A stretch of 64,000 nucleotides of DNA from Microcaldota archaeon. Lineage in GTDB: Archaea > Micrarchaeota > Micrarchaeia > Norongarragalinales > SBBD01. A program made the position numbers and the translations under genes. The notes under the pieces are model-generated. The model worked only from the letters and a program-made list of their open reading frames with translations. It searched no databases and was not told where the DNA came from. Positions 30,391 through 54,796 of this stretch are shown piece by piece; the first letter of the stretch is position 1, and each line of letters opens with the position of its first letter. The stretch is taken from positions 1 to 64,000 of the forward strand of contig JACRGC010000003.1 of assembly GCA_016212475.1 (NCBI GenBank), given 5' to 3'.

Positions 30391-32289
30391 ATGGAAAAGG
30401 ACGAGCCAAACCCAATAATTGCAAAACTACCCCTTTTTCTTTGGCTAACTATAGTGATTCTGCTTCTTGGCGCAGCTTATTTTCTTTTCAGCAAATCCGA
30501 TGGAATTTCAAATCCATTCAATCCAAAGGCACAGTCCGCTTCCCCAACTCCTTTTTTAGTTCCGCAGGTCCAAATAGCCGAATTAAAAACAGTCGGCGAA
30601 AAAACCGAAGTCTCTTCTGCATATTTCAAGGTCGGTGAAGGTGCAATTTCTATTAAGCATACCATTTGGAAGGACGGAGTACATAGGATGGAAAAAATCG
30701 AAATTACTAATCCCACCAAAAAAACATTAAAATTTGCCTTATTGGAGGTAGTCCCGAAAACAATTGCCACCATTGCAGATGCATTTTCACATTCGATTCC
30801 AGCAACTGTTCTAAAAGACGATCCGGTTTTCCTGATCCGCTTTGAGCTAAAACCTGGAGAAACCAAATCATTTGAAACGGATTCATCAGCCGGATATGAA
30901 TTTGGCGTAATGGAAATCCCAATCAATGAAGAAATAGCCACTTTACAGCCAACCCTTTTAAAACAACTAGCTGATACGGTTTCAAGATTCTCTTCGGACG
31001 AATATATGTTCCTATCAATCAAGGATGCAGCTGAAATGGAGCGGGCCCTTTCGGCAGTTTTAAATGATGACCGCAAAATTGAGGATAAAATCACATTCCT
31101 AAATGAAATGATCTCATACCAAGAATTAGTCGAGCCAAAATCCATACATATGGAAATATCCGAATTGCTCCCAATTGGTGATGCAACATTCCACTATGCA
31201 GCAAGAGCCGATCTTAAGCAATTCCTATTCAAAATCACCGGAAATATTGCCGAAAGTTCAATAACCTCTGTATCGCAATCCCCTGATTTTACCGGCAGTG
31301 GCATTGATGTTTACCTAAAAGCCGATTTTCTCTCAAAACTTAAGGGCAATTTGATCAATCCCTTCACCGGCCAAATTTTGCAGGATAAATTCACAGGAAA
31401 TTTGAATATTTCATTTGCAAAAAGCCCTGATGAGAAAATCCAAATTCCAATTGAAACATATGTTGACCATAAGCGGTTAATCTCAATTTACCCCTCAACT
31501 TTGCATATTTTCTCAAAGGATGGCATTTCCCCAACGAAAAAGGCTTTTGCCATCAACAATCTTCCCTACAAAAGTGAAATATTTGTAGGCTTTAGAAGTT
31601 TTCCTCTTTCCAGTTCAACCGAGCTTTCCAAACGCGAAACGAAGTCGTATGCCAACAATATACTCTTCGAACGCCCGGAAATTTCAATATTTGATAATGG
31701 AACGCAATTCCCTAATTTTACTGTTGTTTCCATCAACTCGAGCCTAAATTCTGACCTACTTGAAGAGCTTTCGATGAATGATGTTTTAACCGGAAGATTT
31801 GTGGATGCTGCCAGGCAACCTAAGATCGTATCGGATGCATCCGATTGCTCCAACTTCTATTGCTCTTGCGTTCAACTGAAATCCGCAATCCCCCTTAAAA
31901 TGATGGAAGTTAAGCAAATTGCCTCTTCCATCTACCCAAGCAAACTTGGGCTTTATGCCGACTTGTTTTTCAAAAATGAGGATTTTGTCTATTTTACCCA
32001 TTCATCCCCAATTTTCTATTATTCTCCTGAGGAAGACAATTGCAAAATTGACCAATTAAATGAAACTTTGGAAAATGGGCACATCTATTTGGTTGCTATA
32101 ACCGCTGACTTTTCCAACAAGGTTGCAAAAGAACCAATCCTTCGGAGTTTTTTGGTCGATACCGGCAAGTCCTGGCTTTACTATGGTTTTGATGGATCCG
32201 CCTTTTCTGACCTTTCCGACCAAACCATATTTGAAAACTTAATCTCAAAACACGATGAGGCAGTTTCAATGCTTTCAAAGGGAAAATAA
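30391..32289 (+). CDS. Single-span membrane protein with large external domain, 632 aa
   Basis: The N-terminus has one transmembrane helix (residues 12-32, LPLFLWLTIVILLLGAAYFLF). A roughly 590-residue extracellular region follows. The section ITNPTKKTLKFALLEVVPKTIA...FELKPGETKSF resembles immunoglobulin-like domains used for envelope proteins. Several Cys occur near the end (SDCSNFYCSCVQL). It ends immediately before the 1938-aa gene start (stop 32287-32289, ATG 32290), so the two are co-transcribed. I do not recognise a family. Confidence 0.6.
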   Translation: MEKDEPNPIIAKLPLFLWLTIVILLLGAAYFLFSKSDGISNPFNPKAQSASPTPFLVPQVQIAELKTVGEKTEVSSAYFKVGEGAISIKHTIWKDGVHRMEKIEITNPTKKTLKFALLEVVPKTIATIADAFSHSIPATVLKDDPVFLIRFELKPGETKSFETDSSAGYEFGVMEIPINEEIATLQPTLLKQLADTVSRFSSDEYMFLSIKDAAEMERALSAVLNDDRKIEDKITFLNEMISYQELVEPKSIHMEISELLPIGDATFHYAARADLKQFLFKITGNIAESSITSVSQSPDFTGSGIDVYLKADFLSKLKGNLINPFTGQILQDKFTGNLNISFAKSPDEKIQIPIETYVDHKRLISIYPSTLHIFSKDGISPTKKAFAINNLPYKSEIFVGFRSFPLSSSTELSKRETKSYANNILFERPEISIFDNGTQFPNFTVVSINSSLNSDLLEELSMNDVLTGRFVDAARQPKIVSDASDCSNFYCSCVQLKSAIPLKMMEVKQIASSIYPSKLGLYADLFFKNEDFVYFTHSSPIFYYSPEEDNCKIDQLNETLENGHIYLVAITADFSNKVAKEPILRSFLVDTGKSWLYYGFDGSAFSDLSDQTIFENLISKHDEAVSMLSKGK

Positions 32290-35200
32290 ATGAATAAAAT
32301 TTTTATCGCAATAATGGCTTTTTCCCTAGTTGCATCCTTTTCTCATGCATTTACGGAAAAAGAACTTTGTGATGAACTCGCCAAAAAAACAGGTTTAACT
32401 GGCGTTGAATTAACCAATGCCTGCAATGAACTGATTCTAACCGCCAGGCTTTCATTGGAAGAACAAGACCTTGATTCAGAACTGCAAGTAGTCTCTGAAG
32501 CGCACGCGCAAAAGGATTACGGCAGGTTTGCTCCTGCATCCTTTGTCCTAAATGCCTATGGTTCGTTTCAGGATACCGACCAAAGCAATCGGGAAATGTT
32601 CAAGGAGGAAGAAGGGCTAAAACTTCTTCGTTCATGCGTTGGTTCAAAAGACAAATGCTTTGTTTCCGATATATGCTCAAAAAGCTGCAAATGCGATTAT
32701 TCTGTCGGCGTCAACAAATACTTCGTAACTGCTAATTCCGCCCTTGATTATGTTTGCTCTGAAAACCCGGCAGTCCAAGTCCTAAAAGAAACCAAATCAA
32801 TTGAGCTGGATCCTGCTAAAAAATTTGATATATTTTCTAAAAAATCAGAAGACTACCAAAAAAATGAAAAATTTGCAAGGGCAGTTTCCAGCCTATTATC
32901 CGCATTAGCAATTGCCAAGGCAAATCCGGATAACAAAATACTTCAAAATCAGGCGCAATTAGCCTCCAAGCAATTAGAGCTTTTAGCTTCCAAAAGTGCC
33001 CATTCCGGCAAATTTTCAGAATGCATGAAAGGCTTTTCCGATGTTTTGGAAGGTCTTGCCACATACCAAACAATTGCCTGGATGGCCGGCACGGTTATTT
33101 TCAAATATGGGGTTTCTACCGTACTCACTGGGGGCACAGCAACTGTTGCCATAATCATGTCTGATATTTCAATTCACGGCTATTTCACATATGAGATTGC
33201 AAAAGGACTAATTGAATCCTATAAGCAAACACCATCTGATAAAATGGGCGCCCGTTTCACATGTCAACTGATAGGCTCCGGCTTTTTGCTTGCAATGACT
33301 TTATCCGGAACCATAAAGGGAACAAAGGCGGCAGTTGCCTTGCAGCGCATCAAAAAGTATGGCGTTTTGGATGAAAGTTCAATTGGCTCCAAAGAATTGG
33401 TTAAGGCGGATCTTGAAGCAAAAAATATCAAGGCTAAAGTTGCCGGCATTGGGCTTGAATCCGGTTTAAAAGTCCTATATCCTTCGGAAATAATTGCAAG
33501 GGCAATGGGCAAAATCGTTGAAAAATACTCCAAAACAGGAAAAAAAGCCCCAGAAGCATTCAAGGAAATCCTTGAGCTAAAAGAATCCAAGGCAGGCCCC
33601 ATCCTAAAAGATGCAACCAAGGCAAATTTGGAAACGGAAGTTGAAAAAACACTAAAGGAAACCGAAAGCTCCTTTTCCAAATCAGAAATTGAATATTTGG
33701 ACGTCTTATCCGGCCTGGAAAAAGGCAAATCAATCTCCTTTGAAAACTACCAAAAATTCGAAACCATCCGCCATAATCTGGATTTGGAACTAAAAAACCA
33801 GCAAAAACTTATTTCCGAAATAAAGAAGATCGATAGGATAAGCCCTAGCATAAAGATTGCAGAAAAAGACCCGATTTTTTCAAAAATGAAGGCAATGCAG
33901 AAGGAATTGAAGGACATCGACCGGAAGTACATAAAAAGCAACCTGAAATTGAAGGATAAGTTTGATCCAGAATTCCTTCGGAATAAATTCATTCTAAAGA
34001 ATGAGCACTTAGGAAATTCTCAACGATTCGTAAAAACAACCCTTTTTTCCGGTGAACTTTCACCTGAAGGGCGTGCATTTTTATTAGAGCCAAATTTTTT
34101 ATCATCCCTAAATATAATTGGAGGAAAATGGGACACTAACTATGATGTTTTTTTTAAAAGGGTAAATTTGGCAAAAATATTGAACAATCCAGAATCAAGA
34201 AGTTACCTAAAAAGAACAATGGAAGCAAAAAAAGAAATTAATTTGGCTATATTGTCCATTTTGGGTACTATTGTAAGAAATTCGGAGGAACGAAAAGGAA
34301 AAAAATCAGGTTTCGAATATGATATAGCGTTTCAAGAAAGGTTTCTTTCAGGAGAGACTTTAGATTGGAACTCGTACTGGTTGGAAGATTTGGAAAGCGC
34401 GATTCTGTCCGATTCAAAAATTTGCATTGATAAGATGAATGTTGTTAGGGATAATTATCGTGTTTTGAACGCCATTAAGGATGTTGACGAATATTTATCC
34501 GTAGGACTTATCTATGCCCTAGCCGAAAATACTTATCCGAACCTTGGAGAATTTCTTAATTTCTTTTACAATCGGGGGGCCAAACTCGTCGAACTAAGAA
34601 ATATTGCTCGCCAAAATAGCGGCCTTTCAGGGTCAGCTCATCCAGACTTATTATTTGAGCTAAAGAATTTAATGGAACTTGAGCGAGCATTAGGGAAGCG
34701 GTTTGATTTTAGCAAAACAGAGGATATTGCTAATTTTAATAATGAATTTTCTAAAATGAATCGTTTTTATCCAAATTCGAAAGAAATTATTTTTGAAAAC
34801 TTTAAAACAGCCAAAGATTTGGATTACAGCTTGAAGATTAAATTAACCGCTGCAGACCGTATTCCTTCTTCTCAATTTATTTATGATATAGATCCGCCAA
34901 AATTCAGGACGAAAATAGAACAATTTACCAAAGATTACCCGAAGATTTCAAAAGTCATCAAAAAACATGAATTGGATTACGATTCATTTATTTTATTCCT
35001 AACAAATGCGGAAAAACTAAATAAATATTCGGAAAGCCATTTGGCACTTATTATCGAAGCCATGGATCGCTCTCCCGATTATAAATTCAAGGAAGCCTTT
35101 TTGAAAAATGATTGGCTTCTAAATGATGTTGAGACATTGAATTCAATTTTAAAAGTATCTGATTTTAGCAAGATAAGGACTCGTGGCGCTGATCCATTGG

Positions 35201-38106
35201 TATTTCAAAGACTAATTACCTTATCCAATTTTGGCCTTTTGGACAAATCAAAATTACAAGAAATACTTTCTCATCTTGAAAACAACAAATATAGTGATTC
35301 GGAAGCTAATTTTGTAATTCAGTTATCGGGCGTTCTAGATAGATCATTTTCGTATGGTGGAGATGTAAGTGTAGTTGAATCTTCAACTTGGTCCAATCGC
35401 CTATCTCTTGCTGAAATACGGGCGGTAATTGAGAATTCAAGGAAATTAACTGAAATTGGAGATTTTAATGATAATTATGGGAACAATTATTACAAAACAA
35501 AATACCTTAACTCAATCCTGCTGATTGACAAATCAAACCTGGAATTTATACTTGATCGGAAAAATATTAATCTTATCGTACATTATGCAAAACGACTTGG
35601 TCCGCAGTTTGGCCATAACTATTTCGATTCGATGTTAAGGGATTTGCCTGATAAATCCAAGTTGGAATTGTTGACAAATTCCGAATTTATGGAAACAATA
35701 CTGAATTTGAAAACAAAAACACCTAAATTTGCAGAAACAGCTCTGGAAGTAATTATTTTAGGCGGGGATTCGCGTGGAAGAATCGATGCAGCAAGAATGG
35801 TCGAGGGCGTAAAGATTGCAAGCGAACTAGACGCCCTTGGAATTCAAAATTCAATTCCGATTGTTTTTAACCATCCGGAATCCAGTGCTTTATTGAAAAA
35901 ACCCCGCTTTAAGGAATATTTGGCAAAACAAGCTAGGGAAATTGACACTCAAACCGTCGAAGAACTAGTGGATGATTACCTCTCATTTGCTGAAAACCCA
36001 AGATTCAAGGGAAAAATGGAACTCGTATTGGATCAAAATGCCTTATATCGCACTTCCCCTTCAGAATTCTTGCCGTTTGCGAAAAATTTTCTTGATGACC
36101 CGCAAGCAACCGAACTAGCATTCAAATACGGGCAGTTGAACGATTTTACAATATTGAAAATCCGAGAGGCAATGGATGCTGATAAATCCGCAGGCAAGAG
36201 TTTGGTGGAAAAGGCCCTTTCCGAAGGTATTTATGGTGTTGAATTAGTGGATGTTTCAACGGGCAAAAAAACCATTACCGAGGTTTTAAAACAGAGGGAT
36301 TTGGGAATTCTGGAAAATAAACCCCTAGTAGCCGAGCTGGAGTTAAAATTAAATAAAAAAGGCCTTCCCGATGCCCTAAGGCAAACTATCGACAGATATG
36401 AAAAGAACGGCGTGAAAATAGCACTAACTTCAGGAAGCGCAAGGAATCCTATTTTGAACTTGCTTGGATTTTCAAAGGATGTTGAAATAAAAGATATAGA
36501 TATTATTTTGCAGGAAGTTACAATAACTGCTTCAGAACTTAAGCAACTTTGTGCAAATTGCGATTCAGCAATTCTATCAAAAATTATCGATCGTTTAAAA
36601 TCCGACAAAATGACCTTACCTGCCCTCTATAGGGGAATGGCTGAAAAAATAAGGATTTTTGATGATGTTGCAGCTGACAAATTGGCTATCAGACGGGCAA
36701 GGCTGATTTTGGAAAGTGAACTTGGAACCTTATTCAAAGATGAATTTGGCGATTTCTATAAAGATGGAAAACTTAGCGATTTAAAAATAGCCGAAATACT
36801 TAAAGACGAAAACTTGGAATCTACAAGGGTCATGAAAAACATTGTATTATTGCTTGAGGATATCACTCGAGCCAAAGAACTAGGAAATGATATTAGGGGG
36901 GATGCCAGTGCTGTAACCCGGGGAGATGCCGGAATAAATGCAATGCTAATTTTCAAGGATTCAAAAGGAAAATTGAAGATTTCCGATCCAGAAAATGCCA
37001 TTTTGGATGCCAAGCGAGGGGAGATAAAGATCTCAAAAGGCTTAACCTCCGTTTATGGTGAAAGAATCCCGATCAATACGATGGTTACCAGCACAACAGA
37101 AGCTGCCGTTGCGGATTATTTAAGATTGCTTAAGCTTCAAGGTCAATTCGGGCTTAAAATCAATGCGGACCACGAAAAAATTATTCTAAGCGGCGTAAAT
37201 TACATGAATTTCAAATCAGTTTTTGAACCAACAATTACCAATGTCCGGGTAAAGAAAAACGCTGCAAAAGTATTATCCTTCCTTGAGGGGCAGGATCTTT
37301 CCTCTGCCGAAGTCAGGGCAGTTGTAAAGAAACTTGCGAGTGTGTTTGATAAAAATCAGGAGTTGGTAGCAATGCTTGAAAAAATCACAGTCAAAGGAAT
37401 CCGTAAAACCTATATTATTAATGCGATTTATCCGGAATTATCCTTGGGTGAAAGAAAAACTTTTCTTGAAAAAGGGCTTTCTGATGAATTTGTATTTCAC
37501 GGTACGCGAACTCAAACAGTTGCTTTGGGGGAAGTATCCCTTGAAACTTCTTCATCAGCAAAAGGTATAATTGAGGCGGGCATGGTTGCTGGGATTCGCG
37601 AAGCTTATGGAAAAGGAGTATATGCGACCAATAAATTGACCACAGCTCTTCGGGAATATGGGCAGGCAGATTCCAATCCTGTGGGCGTTGTCATGATCAA
37701 TAAAAATAATTTATTCAATTTGAAAAACGAAATTGGCCAAGCCAGGGAGATTAAAATTTTAGAAAAGGTCTCTATTGATGAAAATTGGTACGTTGCCCTT
37801 GAAGGTCCAGGCGAAGCTGGCAAAACAATTGTCCCCCTTTCAGCAGTCCACAAGATATTGTTCAGCGCTGATATGTACTTCCGTGCAAAGAACGAATTTG
37901 ATGCATTGGTTGAGCGGGAACAGCTTTCAATAATAAATGATAATCCGGATGTATCTATGGCTAAATTAAAGCCCCAACTGGATGCTGTCAGATCACGAAT
38001 TAATGAGGAAAAATTCGGTGCTGGAAGGACATTTGAAGATGTTGTTGTAAATGTTTATGATCTTGATTTGCAATTGCCCGAAGAATACCTAAAAAGACCA
38101 AACTAA
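32290..38106 (+). CDS. Giant secreted protein with NTase-like and PARP/ART-like segments, 1938 aa
   Basis: The signal peptide is residues 1-20 (MNKIFIAIMAFSLVASFSHA). Cys-rich segment about 110-160 (CVGSKDKCFVSDICSKSCKC). Hydrophobic spans about 260-300 and 322-344. Coiled-coil/helical regions 360-1340. Residues 1378-1407 read TSGSARNPILNLLG...KDIDIIL, like the GG/GS...LLG...DxD signature of poly(A)-polymerase/CCA-type nucleotidyltransferases. R1544-G-D-A-G-I-N-A-M1552 with SDPENAILDAKRGEIKI echoes the RRDFTINAM...DP..G..DL block. Residues 1737-1790 read FHGTRTQ...GKGVYATNKLTTALREY, the H1737...Y1778...Y1790 layout of PARP/ART folds. The third catalytic position (GKTIVPLSAV) lacks Glu. Base composition shifts to AT inside about 34.0-36.2 kb. 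Function unknown; toxin-like or surface enzyme are guesses. Confidence 0.6.
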   Translation: MNKIFIAIMAFSLVASFSHAFTEKELCDELAKKTGLTGVELTNACNELILTARLSLEEQDLDSELQVVSEAHAQKDYGRFAPASFVLNAYGSFQDTDQSNREMFKEEEGLKLLRSCVGSKDKCFVSDICSKSCKCDYSVGVNKYFVTANSALDYVCSENPAVQVLKETKSIELDPAKKFDIFSKKSEDYQKNEKFARAVSSLLSALAIAKANPDNKILQNQAQLASKQLELLASKSAHSGKFSECMKGFSDVLEGLATYQTIAWMAGTVIFKYGVSTVLTGGTATVAIIMSDISIHGYFTYEIAKGLIESYKQTPSDKMGARFTCQLIGSGFLLAMTLSGTIKGTKAAVALQRIKKYGVLDESSIGSKELVKADLEAKNIKAKVAGIGLESGLKVLYPSEIIARAMGKIVEKYSKTGKKAPEAFKEILELKESKAGPILKDATKANLETEVEKTLKETESSFSKSEIEYLDVLSGLEKGKSISFENYQKFETIRHNLDLELKNQQKLISEIKKIDRISPSIKIAEKDPIFSKMKAMQKELKDIDRKYIKSNLKLKDKFDPEFLRNKFILKNEHLGNSQRFVKTTLFSGELSPEGRAFLLEPNFLSSLNIIGGKWDTNYDVFFKRVNLAKILNNPESRSYLKRTMEAKKEINLAILSILGTIVRNSEERKGKKSGFEYDIAFQERFLSGETLDWNSYWLEDLESAILSDSKICIDKMNVVRDNYRVLNAIKDVDEYLSVGLIYALAENTYPNLGEFLNFFYNRGAKLVELRNIARQNSGLSGSAHPDLLFELKNLMELERALGKRFDFSKTEDIANFNNEFSKMNRFYPNSKEIIFENFKTAKDLDYSLKIKLTAADRIPSSQFIYDIDPPKFRTKIEQFTKDYPKISKVIKKHELDYDSFILFLTNAEKLNKYSESHLALIIEAMDRSPDYKFKEAFLKNDWLLNDVETLNSILKVSDFSKIRTRGADPLVFQRLITLSNFGLLDKSKLQEILSHLENNKYSDSEANFVIQLSGVLDRSFSYGGDVSVVESSTWSNRLSLAEIRAVIENSRKLTEIGDFNDNYGNNYYKTKYLNSILLIDKSNLEFILDRKNINLIVHYAKRLGPQFGHNYFDSMLRDLPDKSKLELLTNSEFMETILNLKTKTPKFAETALEVIILGGDSRGRIDAARMVEGVKIASELDALGIQNSIPIVFNHPESSALLKKPRFKEYLAKQAREIDTQTVEELVDDYLSFAENPRFKGKMELVLDQNALYRTSPSEFLPFAKNFLDDPQATELAFKYGQLNDFTILKIREAMDADKSAGKSLVEKALSEGIYGVELVDVSTGKKTITEVLKQRDLGILENKPLVAELELKLNKKGLPDALRQTIDRYEKNGVKIALTSGSARNPILNLLGFSKDVEIKDIDIILQEVTITASELKQLCANCDSAILSKIIDRLKSDKMTLPALYRGMAEKIRIFDDVAADKLAIRRARLILESELGTLFKDEFGDFYKDGKLSDLKIAEILKDENLESTRVMKNIVLLLEDITRAKELGNDIRGDASAVTRGDAGINAMLIFKDSKGKLKISDPENAILDAKRGEIKISKGLTSVYGERIPINTMVTSTTEAAVADYLRLLKLQGQFGLKINADHEKIILSGVNYMNFKSVFEPTITNVRVKKNAAKVLSFLEGQDLSSAEVRAVVKKLASVFDKNQELVAMLEKITVKGIRKTYIINAIYPELSLGERKTFLEKGLSDEFVFHGTRTQTVALGEVSLETSSSAKGIIEAGMVAGIREAYGKGVYATNKLTTALREYGQADSNPVGVVMINKNNLFNLKNEIGQAREIKILEKVSIDENWYVALEGPGEAGKTIVPLSAVHKILFSADMYFRAKNEFDALVEREQLSIINDNPDVSMAKLKPQLDAVRSRINEEKFGAGRTFEDVVVNVYDLDLQLPEEYLKRPN

Positions 38107-38261: not shown

Positions 38262-39266
38262 ATGTCTATGCTTGTGCCCACCCCAAGCGGAATAGCGCTA
38301 CAATTACAGCAGGAACAATTGATTCTTGATGGCAGAGGAGATCTAGTATTCATCTCCCATGCCCACTCTGACCACTCTTCGGGAGCCAAAAAAAGCAAGA
38401 GACTGATCTCATCTACGGAAACAATAGACTTGATGCACTCGAGGAACTATGCCGATTCGCAGGCGATGCAAAAAAAACTGGTTTCAACAGCTGATTTCAA
38501 CTACGAGCTTTTGGATGCTGGCCACGTCCTTGGATCAAAGCAGCTCCACATCTCAAATGGCTTTTCATTCACTTACACTGGCGATTTCAAAACCAAGGAC
38601 TCACTCACAAACAAAGGTGCCGAAATTAGGCAAGCTGATACTCTTCTGATGGAGTGCACATACGGCCTACCCTACTATAAATTCCCTGACCCAACTGAAG
38701 TTTACGCCGAAATGGAAAAATGGGTCGATTTGCAATTAAAGGAAGGCTCATCCATCATAATCGGAGGCTACGCACTTGGAAAAGCGCAGGAAGTCATCAA
38801 AATCCTAAATGATTATTGCGATGTCACTCCAATTGTGAGCTCTGAAATTTTCAAAATCTCGGATGTTTACCTAAAGCATGGAATAAATCTGAAATTCATA
38901 AATGAAACCTCTGATGAGGCAAAGCAGCTTCTCAAAAAGCAATTTGTCGCAGTTGTTCCCCATCATTTTGCAAATTATGGGTATGCAGGCAGGCTCTCCG
39001 AATTCTACGGAATGCCAGTTAGGTCGGCAGTTGCAACAGGCTGGGCGCTTGGGAACAGGTACGCGGTTGATAAGGCATTTTGCATCTCGGATCATTGCGA
39101 TTTTCCAGATCTAATGGAATTTGTTGAACAGGTGGCTCCCGAAAGAATAATCACTACGCATGGCTATGAGAAGGAGTTTGCAAGGGAACTCACAAAAAGG
39201 GGCTACGATGCCCAGCCTCTTGGAAATCTCAAACCCAAAAAGCAAAAGCTATTGCTCCAATATTAG
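38262..39266 (+). CDS. Metallo-beta-lactamase-fold nuclease (beta-CASP-like exonuclease)
   Basis: 334 aa. Motif 2 reads FISHAHSDH (HxHxDH), followed by LLDAGHVLGSKQL (motif 3 His), YTGDF (motif 4 Asp) and a beta-CASP-like region (IIIGGYALGKAQEVIKIL, ATGWALGNRYAVDKAFCISDHCDFPDL) with a final HGYEKEF. This is the COG1236/YSH1-type family of RNA processing or DNA-ligase-linked exonucleases. Which nucleic acid it acts on cannot be told; no ligase is adjacent. Confidence 0.8.
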   Translation: MSMLVPTPSGIALQLQQEQLILDGRGDLVFISHAHSDHSSGAKKSKRLISSTETIDLMHSRNYADSQAMQKKLVSTADFNYELLDAGHVLGSKQLHISNGFSFTYTGDFKTKDSLTNKGAEIRQADTLLMECTYGLPYYKFPDPTEVYAEMEKWVDLQLKEGSSIIIGGYALGKAQEVIKILNDYCDVTPIVSSEIFKISDVYLKHGINLKFINETSDEAKQLLKKQFVAVVPHHFANYGYAGRLSEFYGMPVRSAVATGWALGNRYAVDKAFCISDHCDFPDLMEFVEQVAPERIITTHGYEKEFARELTKRGYDAQPLGNLKPKKQKLLLQY

Positions 39267-39324
39267 TTGACCAACCCCAGGGGGTGACCCCCTTAGTCTG
39301 GTCGGACTCCCAAACCCCCCTTAG
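39267..39324. repeat. Dispersed structured repeat, copy 1
   Basis: Directly after the nuclease stop. It is nearly identical to 52706-52765. GGGGG (39280-39284 region) pairs with CCCCC across a TGA loop. GACCA (39269-39273) and TGGTC can form an outer stem, and AGTC/GACT an alternative. A third C-run at the end could compete for the same G-run. The loop differs from copy 2 while the stem is kept. Confidence 0.7.
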
Positions 39325-39343
39325 AATTTTACGACATTAGTTT

Positions 39344-39763
39344 TTAGTATCCCAAATAAAACAGCGCTAGGCCCGTAGCAACCAAAGCCACTAATCGGTG
39401 CCCGGAATCAAGGGCAAACAGTTCCCAGTTCTGATGCCTTGAGAAAATCTCCTGCGTAAAGCTGGTTGTCATAACAAATCCAATCCAAAGGATAACAGAA
39501 ATTGAAACTGCAGAATAAGCGGTTTTAACTCCCTCCCAAACAAAAACAAATCCCAAAACAAATGCGGTAATCAATGCGGCAACAAATGAGAGGAAATACA
39601 TCCTCCCCATGCCTGCCTTGTTCTTTTTCATCTCCTTTTCGCTCCAACCAGAGAGCTTCATCCATTTATTCCCAAAAAGCATTGGCGAATACCACAAATA
39701 GCCAACAACCATTGCAACAACCGCAGCTAGAAAAACAGAAATCGTACTTAACCATTCAAACAT
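39344..39763 (-). CDS. DUF1761-like membrane protein, 139 aa
   Basis: ATG 39761-39763, preceded by GAGGGTGAGC. Four transmembrane helices. The N-terminal VVAMVVGYLWYSPMLFGNKWMKLSGWSEKEMKK segment (helix followed by a W-Y-x-P-x-L-F-G-x-x-W motif) is characteristic of DUF1761. Function unknown. It is convergent with the nuclease gene, with the dispersed repeat between them. Confidence 0.72.
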   Translation of the reverse strand: MFEWLSTISVFLAAVVAMVVGYLWYSPMLFGNKWMKLSGWSEKEMKKNKAGMGRMYFLSFVAALITAFVLGFVFVWEGVKTAYSAVSISVILWIGFVMTTSFTQEIFSRHQNWELFALDSGHRLVALVATGLALFYLGY

Positions 39764-39876
39764 AGCGCTCACCCTCAAACAGATAATGCAAACCCCCTAT
39801 AAAAGTTTGATGTTTTTGGAGATTTTAACGGAATAGCAATAAATTAGTTGAGCCATGAGCAAAATGCAATTTCAAT

Positions 39877-51054: not shown

Positions 51055-51183
51055 ATGAAAACAAAAAGTTCCTTCAAATTGGAAAAAATCACAGGCAAGA
51101 AGGAGAAGGTTTTCCAAGGATTTGTGTACAATGTAACAACGGAAACCGGAAATCTTGTTGCAAACGACGTGCTGGTCCACAAC
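51055..51183 (+). other. Intein C-terminal fragment (IntC), 43 aa
   Basis: The first 43 codons end in a textbook intein C-terminus. Block F reads [19 protein letters not shown] and block G is VLVHN, giving penultimate His42 and final Asn43, directly followed by Ser44 as the +1 nucleophile of the extein. IntC fragments of natural split inteins are about 35-50 aa, so the length fits. No N-terminal intein half precedes it: upstream is the end of RNase Z and an 81-base gap. Confidence 0.88.
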
Positions 51184-52443
51184 TCCGGAGGCTTAGGTAC
51201 CCCTCCGCATCTTCGGATCGAAGCTGGCGCAATCCATAAGGCAAACAAGGGCGTACTTTACATAGATGAGGTTTCAACGCTTAGGCCAAAGGCGCAGCAG
51301 GAGCTTTTGACTGCAATTCAAGAGAAAAGATTTTCAATTACCGGCCAAAGCGAGCTTTCTTCCGGCGCGCAGGTAAAAACCGAGCCGGTGCCATGTGATT
51401 TTGTCTTGATAGCTGCTGGAAATTACAGCGACATCCGAAATATGCACCCCGCCCTTCGCTCAAGAATTAGGGGCTATGGGTATGAAGTTTACATGGATGA
51501 AACCATGCCAGATTCCCTTCCAAACCAGCTAAGGCTTGTCCAATTCATTGCGCAGGAGGTTTCAAAGGATGGGAAGATTCCGCATTTTGACCAAACCGCA
51601 ATCCAGGAAGTGATTTATGAGGCAAGGAAAAGAGCTGGAAGAAAAAACCGCCTAACACTTAGGCTTCGGGAGCTTGGCGGGCTTGTTAGGGCAGCTGGGG
51701 ATTTGGCAAGGGAGCAGGCATCAAAACTAGTTTCAGCAATCCATGTAAAGGCGGCAAAGCGGCTCTCAAGAACGCTTGAGCAGCAAATGAGCCAGCAATT
51801 CATAGATGTAAAGAAGGATTACCGCGTTTTTGTTTCCGAAGGCAATGAAATCGGAAGGGTCAATGGATTAGCCGTCATGGGCGATTCTGGAATCGTGCTT
51901 CCAATAGTTGCCGAAGTTGCGCCAGCTGCAAGCAAGCTCGAAGGCAAAATAATTGCAACCGGAAAGCTTGGCGATATTGCAAAAGAAGCCGTTGAAAATA
52001 TTTCCGCGCTCATAAAAAAACACATAGGAAAAGACACATCTAATTTTGATATTCACGTTCAGTTCCTCCAAACTTATGAGGGTGTGGAGGGGGATTCCGC
52101 AAGCGTTTCAGTTGCAACAGCTGTGCTTTCCGCTCTTGAGGGCGTTGCAATTAGGCAAGATGTTGGAATGACCGGATCCCTATCGGTTAGGGGTGAAGTT
52201 TTGCCAATCGGAGGAGTCACGCAAAAAGTTGAGGCTGCAATTGAAGCCGGCATCAAAAATGTGATTATTCCAAAATCCAACCTTGGCGATTTGGTGATTG
52301 AAGAGGAAAACAAGAAAAAAGTGAAAATCATAGTCGCTACCAGTTGGGCCGATGTTTTGGAAAACGCCCTTAAGGATTCTCCCAAAAAACGGCTGCTTGT
52401 CAAGAAAATAAAGCTCGAGCTTAGCGGGAAGAATGGAAATTGA
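51055..52443 (+). CDS. C-terminal half of LonB protease fused to a split-intein C-fragment
   Basis: 462 aa. After the 43-residue IntC, the LonB sequence begins at [31 protein letters not shown] with Walker B (LYIDE), sensor 1 (IAAGN), arginine finger ([12 protein letters not shown]) and an S16 domain. The catalytic Ser is S348 in EGDSASV and Lys is K391 in [10 protein letters not shown] (43 apart, as expected). Absent are the Walker A, the transmembrane insert and the N-domain, which LonB carries upstream of this point. The active enzyme must come from trans-splicing with an N-half encoded elsewhere. Its own ATG and frame are intact. Confidence 0.88.
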
Positions 52444-52705: not shown

Positions 52706-52765
52706 TTGACCAACCCAAGGGGGAGATCCCCCTTAGTCTGGTCGGACTCCCAAACCCCCCATTAG
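52706..52765. repeat. Dispersed structured repeat, copy 2
   Basis: 60 bases almost identical to 39267-39324, including an uninterrupted 33-base identical stretch in the 3' half. The G5/C5 stem is kept and extended (AAGGGGG with CCCCCTT) while the loop changes from TGA to AGAT, which suggests a conserved RNA or DNA structure. Confidence 0.7.
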
Positions 52766-52853
52766 TTTTGCGAACTATAATGCCTGATTTCTTCAACCCC
52801 TTGAATTACTTTTGCGAATCTAAGAAATCAAAAAAATTAAGCCATAGCTTTTC

Positions 52854-54092
52854 CTATCCCTTGAAATTCGAATCGTTCTCCAAATTATTGTAAACATAAG
52901 CCGCCGGTGAAATCCTGCAATTTTCCCCAATGAAAATCCCGCAGTTGATTGAAACGTTGATTCCGGTTTTTGTGTTCTTCCCAATGACCGCCCCAAGCTT
53001 GTCCCTTCCGGATCCCACCTTTTCCTCGCCGGTTTTTATTGAGATTTGGGAATGGTCGAATTTCAAATTTGCAATTTTTGTCCCCGCGCCAAAATTCACA
53101 TTCTCGCAAATTATCGAATCCCCAATATAGGAAAGATGCGCAGCATTCGAATTATGCATGATTATCGAGCTTTTAACTTCCGTAGAATTTCCAACATGGC
53201 AGTTATCCTCGATCACAACCCCTTTCCTTAGGTATGCGTTTGGCCCAACCACCGAATTTTCCCCGATAAATACATTGCCTTCGATGTAAGTCCCAGCCTT
53301 TACAACCGATCCCTTTCCGACATGGATTTTTCCCTTGACAACAACAAACTCCTCTATTTTCCCCTCAATTGATTGTTCCATAAGGTTTGTTAGGGCGTAT
53401 TCGCTTGCTGCAAGATAATTCCAAAAATACCCAACATCCGTCCAATAGCTTGCAAATTCCAAAACCCTAAGCTTGCTCCCTTTGGCAAAATCCAAAATTG
53501 CATCCGTAATCTCGTACTCGTTCCTTTTTGACAATTTGACTTTTCTTGCGAACTCGAAAAAACCCCTCGGAACAAAAAGCGTTCCCGTATTGATCAATTT
53601 GTTCCTTGCATCAAGTGGCTTTTCAACAAGCCCAACCATGTTGCCTCCCTCCGCTTCAACAACCCCGTATGCAGATGCATCCTCCTCCCTTTTTGCAACA
53701 ATGAATGGGGTTTTAGAATTATCATTTAGGGTTTTGAAAATCGAGGGGTCGAAAAACGTATCCGCATTCATTATGAAAAAAGAGAGCGTTTCAACAAGTT
53801 TTTCCGCCTGCAAAAGCGCGTGCGCAGTCCCCCTCATTTCCTTTTGCTCGACAAATACAATTTTTTGCGCGTGCCTATGCTTTGAGAAATACTCCGTGAT
53901 TTTTGCCTTTTCAAACCCGACAACAATGATTATTTTCCCAACCTGCGGCCCAAATTCCTTGATTATCCCTTCAACTATCCATTCGAGAAGCGGCTTATCC
54001 AATATCCTGACCATGGTTTTTGGGTAGCTATTGGTAATTGGCCTAAGCCTTTTTCCCTGCCCAGCTGCCAGCAAAACAAAATCAAATGCCAT
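52854..54092 (-). CDS. glmU: Bifunctional sugar-1-phosphate nucleotidylyltransferase/acetyltransferase, GlmU-like
   Basis: 412 aa from ATG 54092. The N-terminal nucleotidyltransferase has LLAAGQGKRLRPITNSYPKTMVRI (G-x-G-x-R...PK) and FIMNADTFFDP. The C-terminal half is a left-handed beta-helix with hexapeptide repeats (IEGNVFIGENSVVGPNAYLRKGVVIEDNCHVG...). This is the archaeal two-domain layout that makes UDP-GlcNAc from GlcN-1-P. The glmS gene is in the same operon. The start overlaps the HAD stop region (TGA 54098-54100). Confidence 0.87.
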   Translation of the reverse strand: MAFDFVLLAAGQGKRLRPITNSYPKTMVRILDKPLLEWIVEGIIKEFGPQVGKIIIVVGFEKAKITEYFSKHRHAQKIVFVEQKEMRGTAHALLQAEKLVETLSFFIMNADTFFDPSIFKTLNDNSKTPFIVAKREEDASAYGVVEAEGGNMVGLVEKPLDARNKLINTGTLFVPRGFFEFARKVKLSKRNEYEITDAILDFAKGSKLRVLEFASYWTDVGYFWNYLAASEYALTNLMEQSIEGKIEEFVVVKGKIHVGKGSVVKAGTYIEGNVFIGENSVVGPNAYLRKGVVIEDNCHVGNSTEVKSSIIMHNSNAAHLSYIGDSIICENVNFGAGTKIANLKFDHSQISIKTGEEKVGSGRDKLGAVIGKNTKTGINVSINCGIFIGENCRISPAAYVYNNLENDSNFKG

Positions 54093-54097
54093 ATGTA

Positions 54098-54796
54098 TCA
54101 CTTCATTTTTTCAACAATTTCAATTATTTTCCGCAAATCCCTGTTCGGATCATTTTGCTTGAACAGCAAATGATTGCAATAATTGGTTAAATCCTGCCTG
54201 TAATTGAACGCAACTGAATTCTGCTTCCCAACCAATTCAAACATCGGGACCTCTGAAAACGAATCCCCAACAACCAGGCATTGCGTTTTTTTGGCTTTGT
54301 TTTTCAAGAGCCATGCATTTAGCATTCTTTCCTTCTCCCTTGGCGATAGCACTTTCCCAAGCCTTCCCAGCCTCCCATTTGAGATTTCGCACTCAGAAGT
54401 AAAATAATCGTCGATCAAAAGCTTGTGCCTTGATGCAAACCACCTAATCAAAGGCCCAATTGTTGCGGAAAAAATCCCAATCCTGATGCCATTTTCATTG
54501 AAATATGAAAACGCCTCCTTGGCGCCCTTGGCAATCCCAAGCCCATTAATGATTGCCTTAAGCTTCCTAACCGAATGGGGCCTGTAAATATCCATTGTTT
54601 TTTCCCATACAATTCTTGGCACTGCCTCTTTTTCCCACTCCTTTTTGGCTGACGACAATCCGGAGTAATACTCATTTGAAAGGGCGTCCGATTCCCTTTT
54701 TTTGCCCAGTTTTTCGCATAGGAATAGCGGCGCTTCTTCGAGTGGGATGACGCCGTCAAAATCAAATGCGATAAATTTAATTGCCATTGTTTTCAT
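54098..54796 (-). CDS. HAD-family phosphatase
   Basis: 232 aa from ATG 54796 (MKTMAIKFIAFDFDGV), one base after the upstream stop; ATG 54787 is an alternative. Motif I is FDFDGVIPLEE (DxD), motif II lies in IGIFSATIGPL and motif IV is VVGDSFSEVPMF. The cap looks C1-type. Between glmS and glmU it may act on a phosphosugar of the UDP-GlcNAc pathway, but the substrate is unproven. Confidence 0.72.
   Translation of the reverse strand: MKTMAIKFIAFDFDGVIPLEEAPLFLCEKLGKKRESDALSNEYYSGLSSAKKEWEKEAVPRIVWEKTMDIYRPHSVRKLKAIINGLGIAKGAKEAFSYFNENGIRIGIFSATIGPLIRWFASRHKLLIDDYFTSECEISNGRLGRLGKVLSPREKERMLNAWLLKNKAKKTQCLVVGDSFSEVPMFELVGKQNSVAFNYRQDLTNYCNHLLFKQNDPNRDLRKIIEIVEKMK

Follow-up and report, generated by a model that had tools for sequence, protein, structure and literature searches.

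What kind of element are the two near-identical sequences of ~55 nt that lie 13.4 kb apart in a 64,000-nt stretch of DNA from a Microcaldota archaeon (hereafter the window)? The original prediction had described a pair of near-identical copies, one behind a stop codon, and both are present, with 92% identity over the aligned part; copy 1 of this structured element, here named E, directly follows a TAG stop (Table 1). The 33 nt of the right half (39288–39320 and 52728–52760) are the same in both copies, and two matches at ≤3 mismatches to this stretch occurred in 0 of 100 shuffles. E is laid out as a stem (P1), an internal loop, a G5/C5 stem (P2) with a short variable loop, and a tail, GGACTCCCAAACCCCCC. 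P1 is GACCA/TGGTC in both window copies and P2 is AGGGGG/CCCCCT or AAGGGGG/CCCCCTT; as had been claimed, the G5/C5 stem is common to the copies and the loop differs (TGA vs AGAT). Copy 1 is best bounded as in Table 1, perhaps with ~20–25 nt added rightward; this possible right part, T, was considered because relatives can repeat T together with the unit, e.g., L155.

Table 1. Coordinates of the two E copies in the window and of the genes on either side
Feature	Position	Strand	Remarks
MBL-fold/RMMBL protein gene (ligase-associated exonuclease-like), left of copy 1	38262..39266	+	TAG stop 39264–39266 abuts E edge
E copy 1 core	39267..39320	+	P1 39269–39273 with 39299–39303; P2 39279–39284 with 39288–39293; tail 39304–39320; match score 60.4 bits
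Possible right part T, copy 1	39321..39343	+	ends at stop of convergent gene; putative part of E
DUF1761 protein gene, right of copy 1	39344..39778	−	stop 24 nt from E
Archaeal LonB protease gene, left of copy 2	51055..52443	+	
E copy 2 core	52706..52760	+	P1 52708–52712 with 52739–52743; P2 52717–52723 with 52728–52734; tail 52744–52760; match score 69.6 bits
Possible right part T, copy 2 (ATTAGTTTTGCGAACTATAA)	52761..52780	+	resembles T of G010/G023 copies (..TTTTGCGAATCAA), by eye only
Archaeal GlmU-type sugar-1-phosphate nucleotidylyltransferase gene, right of copy 2	52854..54101	−	

Both window copies are located in intergenic regions between convergent genes. The MBL-fold gene does not look truncated by copy 1, because alignments with homologues reach residue 333 of 334. 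There is no tRNA at either copy, and neither showed a bulge-helix-bulge (BHB) intron or a flanking repeat above control. An intrinsic terminator, one of the functions first suggested, was rejected: no terminator-like site (hairpin plus T-run) was found on either window copy, and the own-genome copies that were read occur in all four gene arrangements (crude ORF calls). The one terminator-like site near copy 1 (39217–39201, − strand) is outside E. What can safely be stated is that the window copies are two members of a family, sitting between convergent genes, that are neither introns nor repeat-flanked and carry no sign of a terminator; they are probably selfish or neutral passengers there. 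Further to the left, the window also contains a very large ORF (32290–38106, 1938 aa) with no Pfam or NCBIfam match and its 632-aa neighbour (30391–32289), which has no Pfam match.

The further copies that the original prediction led one to look for do exist. The window's own genome (G000; 1.37 Mb, 17 contigs, ~92% complete) holds about a dozen, with 10 matches at E-value ≤0.01 using covariance model R1 and 11 using R2. R1, run on the 29 genomes of the window's order, located E in 6, and R2, run on the 301 of the class, in 33, with the own genome included in each count, so that E also occurs in other families of the class; R2 produced no match at E-value ≤1 in 58,951 + 91,281 further bases searched as background. 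The distribution is patchy, with no match in 268 of the 301 class genomes, and subfamilies vary by genome; the genomes are MAGs, many of them fragmented. We examined 104 copies from 30 genomes, including weak, partial and insertion-bearing ones; outside this set are three of the 33 genomes (G063, G066, and G072) and a weak own-genome match (G000:C14:41769). Also left out were the six weakest (E-value ≥0.097) of 48 matches in one search and two weak second matches of 64 in another. No clear gene-orientation bias was apparent across the 104 copies (crude ORF calls), and 14 were inside an ORF of ≥90 aa. Twelve own-genome copies, weaker ones counted in, were read, and none had a repeat or BHB above control. 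All 12 are on the + strand of their contigs, the orientation of which is arbitrary; the weaker matches C14:41769 and L073:8152 are on the − strand.

Several genomes contain composite arrangements. Near-identical E copies are present in G091, where modular intergenic elements of ~110–310 nt (L127–L134) have E on their left and share a right module, which contains a GCAAGCAC..GTGCTTGC hairpin and ends in ..GTTGAC or similar. In G018, the E tail is split by further palindromic sequence of two recurrent insert types, with three copies each (L079:1477, L080:1503, and L085:1429; L081:708, L082:1891, and L084:1526). Tandem E-containing units occur at L088:2716–2851 (G027) and at L155 upstream of 1201 (G023), with a gene-end or tRNA repeat between the units; the second unit upstream of L155 is degenerate and shares the tail, T and the tRNA piece.

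Base-pair changes were counted on structure-blind MAFFT alignments with corrected helix columns, the R1 structure string itself being off by one or two columns. An alignment of 53 copies contained 75 two-sided cells, 71 of them in P1, compared with 27.6 after shuffling (0/500) and 26 in the best slid version; two-sided changes were found at 4/4 counted pairs of P1. The covariation expected across copies was therefore present by this measure but not by two others that were not clearly beyond controls: pairs with a two-sided change (6 vs 4.5 shuffled, 46/500; one slid version has 7) and further pair types (18 vs 15.9 shuffled, 51/500). A first alignment of 18 sequences gave 9 two-sided cells vs 3.4 (0/500) and 3 pairs with two-sided change vs 2.1 (142/500). 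P2 is nearly invariant and says little for or against covariation; the tail is conserved.

The G-run of P2 had been proposed to pair with either of two downstream C-runs in alternative structures. A second, later C-run exists, but the near C-run is the only partner of the G-run in the conserved P2 pairing and in the predicted folds. The far C-run belongs to the tail, which has a partner motif of its own (GTTTGG, GGTTTG, or GGGTTT within 45 nt downstream) in 10 of the 11 copies that resemble introns (see below); it is therefore not what the G-run mainly pairs with. The same motif was found at 0/21 repeat-flanked copies and 2/72 other copies, with a background of 10/378. As single strands, window copy 1 folds unremarkably (z −0.35) and copy 2 moderately well (z −2.30); among relatives, the predicted fold of L150 (z −3.07) has two hairpins in addition to the BHB, L184 is stable too (z −3.21), and L014 is not unusual (z −1.10). 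A known Rfam RNA was rejected since the window had 0 matches at the gathering threshold in Rfam 15. At E-value ≤5, eight E loci gave tRNA matches only, together with one sub-threshold match opposite a tRNA.

The 11 intron-like copies among the 104 lie in sense orientation within tRNA T-loops and fit an exact BHB: a 3-nt bulge, a 4-bp central helix (TTCR/YGRA), and a second 3-nt bulge, with a 5-bp outer helix. The first bulge is at E position 0 or −1 in each. A BHB scan, which had no part in choosing the copies, placed these sense T-loop copies in the top 11 scores of the 104 (p≤0.012 each), and none of the non-tRNA copies scored above control; any BHB candidate at all was found for 38/104 copies vs 32% of 2900 control pairs. 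In silico splicing at the standard points yielded an ARAGORN tRNA in 11/11 products, with introns of 71–129 nt. When E-containing segments were removed in silico, a tRNA spanning the junction by ≥12 nt on each side was called for 12/102 copies and for 0/102 and 0/98 shifted controls, or for 22/102 copies and 0/102 and 1/98 controls with anticodon-loop introns allowed; these positives include weak calls and copies whose flanking repeat holds part of a tRNA (e.g., L018, L022, and L163). First, laxer counts of 16/104 and 26/104 had included intact tRNAs that merely touched the junction.

The 11 copies interrupt eight to ten tRNA isoacceptors in seven genomes, the ARAGORN names being uncertain for L014, L145, and L150, and similar introns are found in different tRNAs. 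In G038, just two Lys tRNA loci were recognized, and E interrupts both. ARAGORN called 19 of the 23 RF00005 loci of that genome; the interrupted Lys TTT gene is among the four uncalled loci and was called only after removal of the insert. A standard finder may therefore miss some Micrarchaeota tRNA genes that are hidden by T-loop introns. The 30 loci examined in G073 (of 31 matches) included no Gly, Arg-GCG, Ser-CGA, or Ser-GGA gene called as uninterrupted; 7 of them were without any call. These counts suggest that the interrupted tRNAs may be the sole versions of these genes in G038 and G073, both only 91–92% complete. The E relatives in T-loops thus appear to be BHB introns that would be spliced from the tRNA. 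The small RNA family of the original prediction is, as a structured RNA, borne out in part, by the covarying stems and by these 11 copies.

A second arrangement was seen at 21 of 102 evaluable copies, where a direct repeat of 19–68 nt flanks E on both sides (left 80-nt flank searched against 130 nt to the right). The left repeat ends ≤6 nt from the left edge of E in 21/21; in a cross-genome control, repeats were found in 0.48% of 3983 pairs and edge-anchored ones in 0.23%. At eight copies (L035, L043, L057, L088:2716, L152, L154, L156, and L170), an ORF encoded on the other strand than E has its stop codon within or close to the right-hand repeat. Pfam supports seven of these ORFs (RibD, triosephosphate isomerase, ATP-grasp, phosphoribosyltransferase, translin, topoisomerase VI A, and radical SAM); the ORF at L154 (69 aa) matched no Pfam family. 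At some of the others, the repeat belongs to a tRNA, being either its 3′ sequence (e.g., L018, L151, L155, and L157) or its 5′ part (L022 and L163). The order at L163 (G067) is the 5′ part of tRNA-Arg, which ends in the anticodon loop, then E, and then a full tRNA-Arg with a few differences. Antisense E insertions at T-loops were also seen, and 72/104 copies have neither the BHB nor the repeat arrangement.

At L057, both gene ends encode DFNPVIADENGASVVDAR, yet 11 of the 18 aligned codons differ, all synonymously (0/200,000 random runs). When the comparison is extended to the full 22 codons as far as the stop, there are 15 differences, 12 of them synonymous and 3 conservative exchanges; ≤3 amino acid changes occurred in 0/100,000 runs. 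Because the codon differences are mostly synonymous, the two ends stem from diverged homologues, and the sequences would fit a gene restored by an integrating element that brought along a version of the end from elsewhere. Elsewhere the two repeats do not differ at all (e.g., 62 nt at L170, 40 nt at L169, and 33 nt at L035), and local duplication would fit these too. Alternatively, E might act in cis as a conserved element at the RNA or DNA level (a regulator, small RNA, or 3′ UTR element) and be duplicated passively, with repeats produced by replication slippage at the strong hairpin or G-rich strand. The covarying hairpin, the convergent intergenic setting of both window copies, and those identical repeats, which look like fresh local duplications, would agree with this. 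Set against the patchy distribution, in which no host gene is conserved, the presence of E inside tRNA genes, and the L057 ends, which differ like orthologues of two lineages, we regard it as improbable. The mobile miniature element of the original prediction is the suggestion that the patchy dispersal, T-loop insertions, and edge-anchored repeats uphold.

Restoration of a gene end resembles the integration of SSV/pNOB8-type elements as described in the accessible part of PMC3293823, and E could accordingly be what remains of larger integrative elements, carried by plasmids or viruses, that have lost their interior, either a recombination end or an attachment site. The searches speak against such an origin, to which we give little chance. 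No E was found in IMG/VR with four exact patterns, in phages and plasmids with one copy as query, or within the integrase and reverse transcriptase (RT) loci that were read, and virus or plasmid carriage was rejected with the queries used. Long-range edge repeats, sought for 91 copies, reached 16.5 at best (L141), the sole value above the control maximum of 14.

Candidate enzymes were also sought. No integrase carried by or flanking E was found in the genomes and loci examined. A tyrosine recombinase is encoded in 6/9 genomes with E vs 3/6 without, but G018 (17 copies, 72% complete) and G021 (3 copies) gave no match for it, and it was rejected as a consistent partner. Nor does a site-specific integrase with one specificity accord with 19- to 68-nt repeats that occur at different genes. 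For the own genome, an IS200/IS605 or REP/RAYT derivative was rejected, since a search of G000 (~92% complete), the one genome covered, yielded neither Y1 transposase nor TnpB.

RT is somewhat commoner in genomes with E (7/29 vs 1/29 without, uncorrected for kinship) but was found in 0/9 E-containing genomes of the window's order, and it was rejected as a required partner on these counts. The overall excess would suit E being primarily a mobile BHB intron that spreads at the RNA level, by reverse-ligation into tRNA or mRNA, copying into DNA, and recombination, with the intergenic copies as dead relics. The 11 T-loop introns with exact BHB in different isoacceptors and genomes point the same way, as does the tRNA intron transposition reported for Thermoproteales (Fujishima 2010, as cited in the accessible text of PMC4090602). 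Antisense insertions at T-loops would not be expected from such an intron, nor would insertions at protein-gene ends with duplicated and, in L057, imported ends, and the non-tRNA copies have no BHB above control; we consider this origin unlikely.

The explanation we somewhat favor is that E is the structured end of a non-autonomous integrative element that inserts at gene ends and in tRNAs and is tolerated either as a BHB intron or through gene restoration. The unit would comprise the conserved core E of ~55 nt and a variable right part, T, and would move within Micrarchaeota without genes of its own, inserted by an enzyme supplied in trans. Its left edge would join the chromosome at a sharp point, often within the T-loop of a tRNA gene or at a gene's 3′ end. 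In sense orientation in a T-loop, E and T together with the T-arm would fold into a BHB that the host tRNA splicing endonuclease could remove, turning the insert into a tRNA intron. Alternatively, the incoming unit would carry or duplicate the end of the interrupted gene, which would restore that gene and leave its former end beyond E as a direct repeat, in the manner of archaeal integrative elements at tRNA genes. More tentatively, and with the odds somewhat against it, E may be a new minimal archaeal mobile element of ~55–130 nt, gene-less, with a structured end for DNA insertion at gene ends, that becomes a BHB intron when sense in a T-loop and so is a direct source of new tRNA introns. One small element may then link jumping DNA with the origin of tRNA introns, and because it occurs as a T-loop intron as well as in the form of an inserted unit whose gene ends are duplicated and, in one case or more, imported, tRNA intron gain in archaea becomes testable.

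Among known systems, MITEs and REP-like elements are, like E, short, non-coding, dispersed, hairpin-forming, and non-autonomous. E differs from them in its long gene-end repeats and intron behavior, and in the lack of Y1 transposase and TnpB matches in G000. An integron attC site was rejected, as the R-box consensus (compared by eye only) does not fit. In the literature on Micrarchaeota repeats and transposable elements and on tRNA intron mobility that was searched, which covered few subscription papers and no bioRxiv preprints, no title or abstract start describes E.

Archaeal BHB tRNA introns are listed at the non-canonical position 59/60 in the accessible part of PMC4090602, which also reports tRNA intron transposition and calls its mechanism unknown. 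The 11 E relatives resemble these introns in their T-loop location, 4-bp central helix, two 3-nt bulges, and recurrence in different tRNAs. Unlike them, the E introns share a covarying core that is also found outside tRNAs in the same class, at gene ends and in intergenic regions, and the window copies are not introns. Direct repeats of 4–30 bp were reported at all 213 introns examined, four of them archaeal, in the available portion of PMC11782384; the E repeats are mostly longer and come from copies outside the set of 11 BHB introns. SSV/pNOB8-type elements differ from E in that the E unit is ~100 nt, with no integrase seen, a sharp E edge, and many targets, including protein genes. Judging from the accessible part of PMC3293823, these elements and the Caldiarchaeum tRNA-disruption model share with E the insertion at a gene end, the restored gene, and the direct repeat, features found among the E relatives (21/102 copies with repeat) and not at the window copies. 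The mismatches inherited in the reconstituted gene, as described there, are a further likeness to E.
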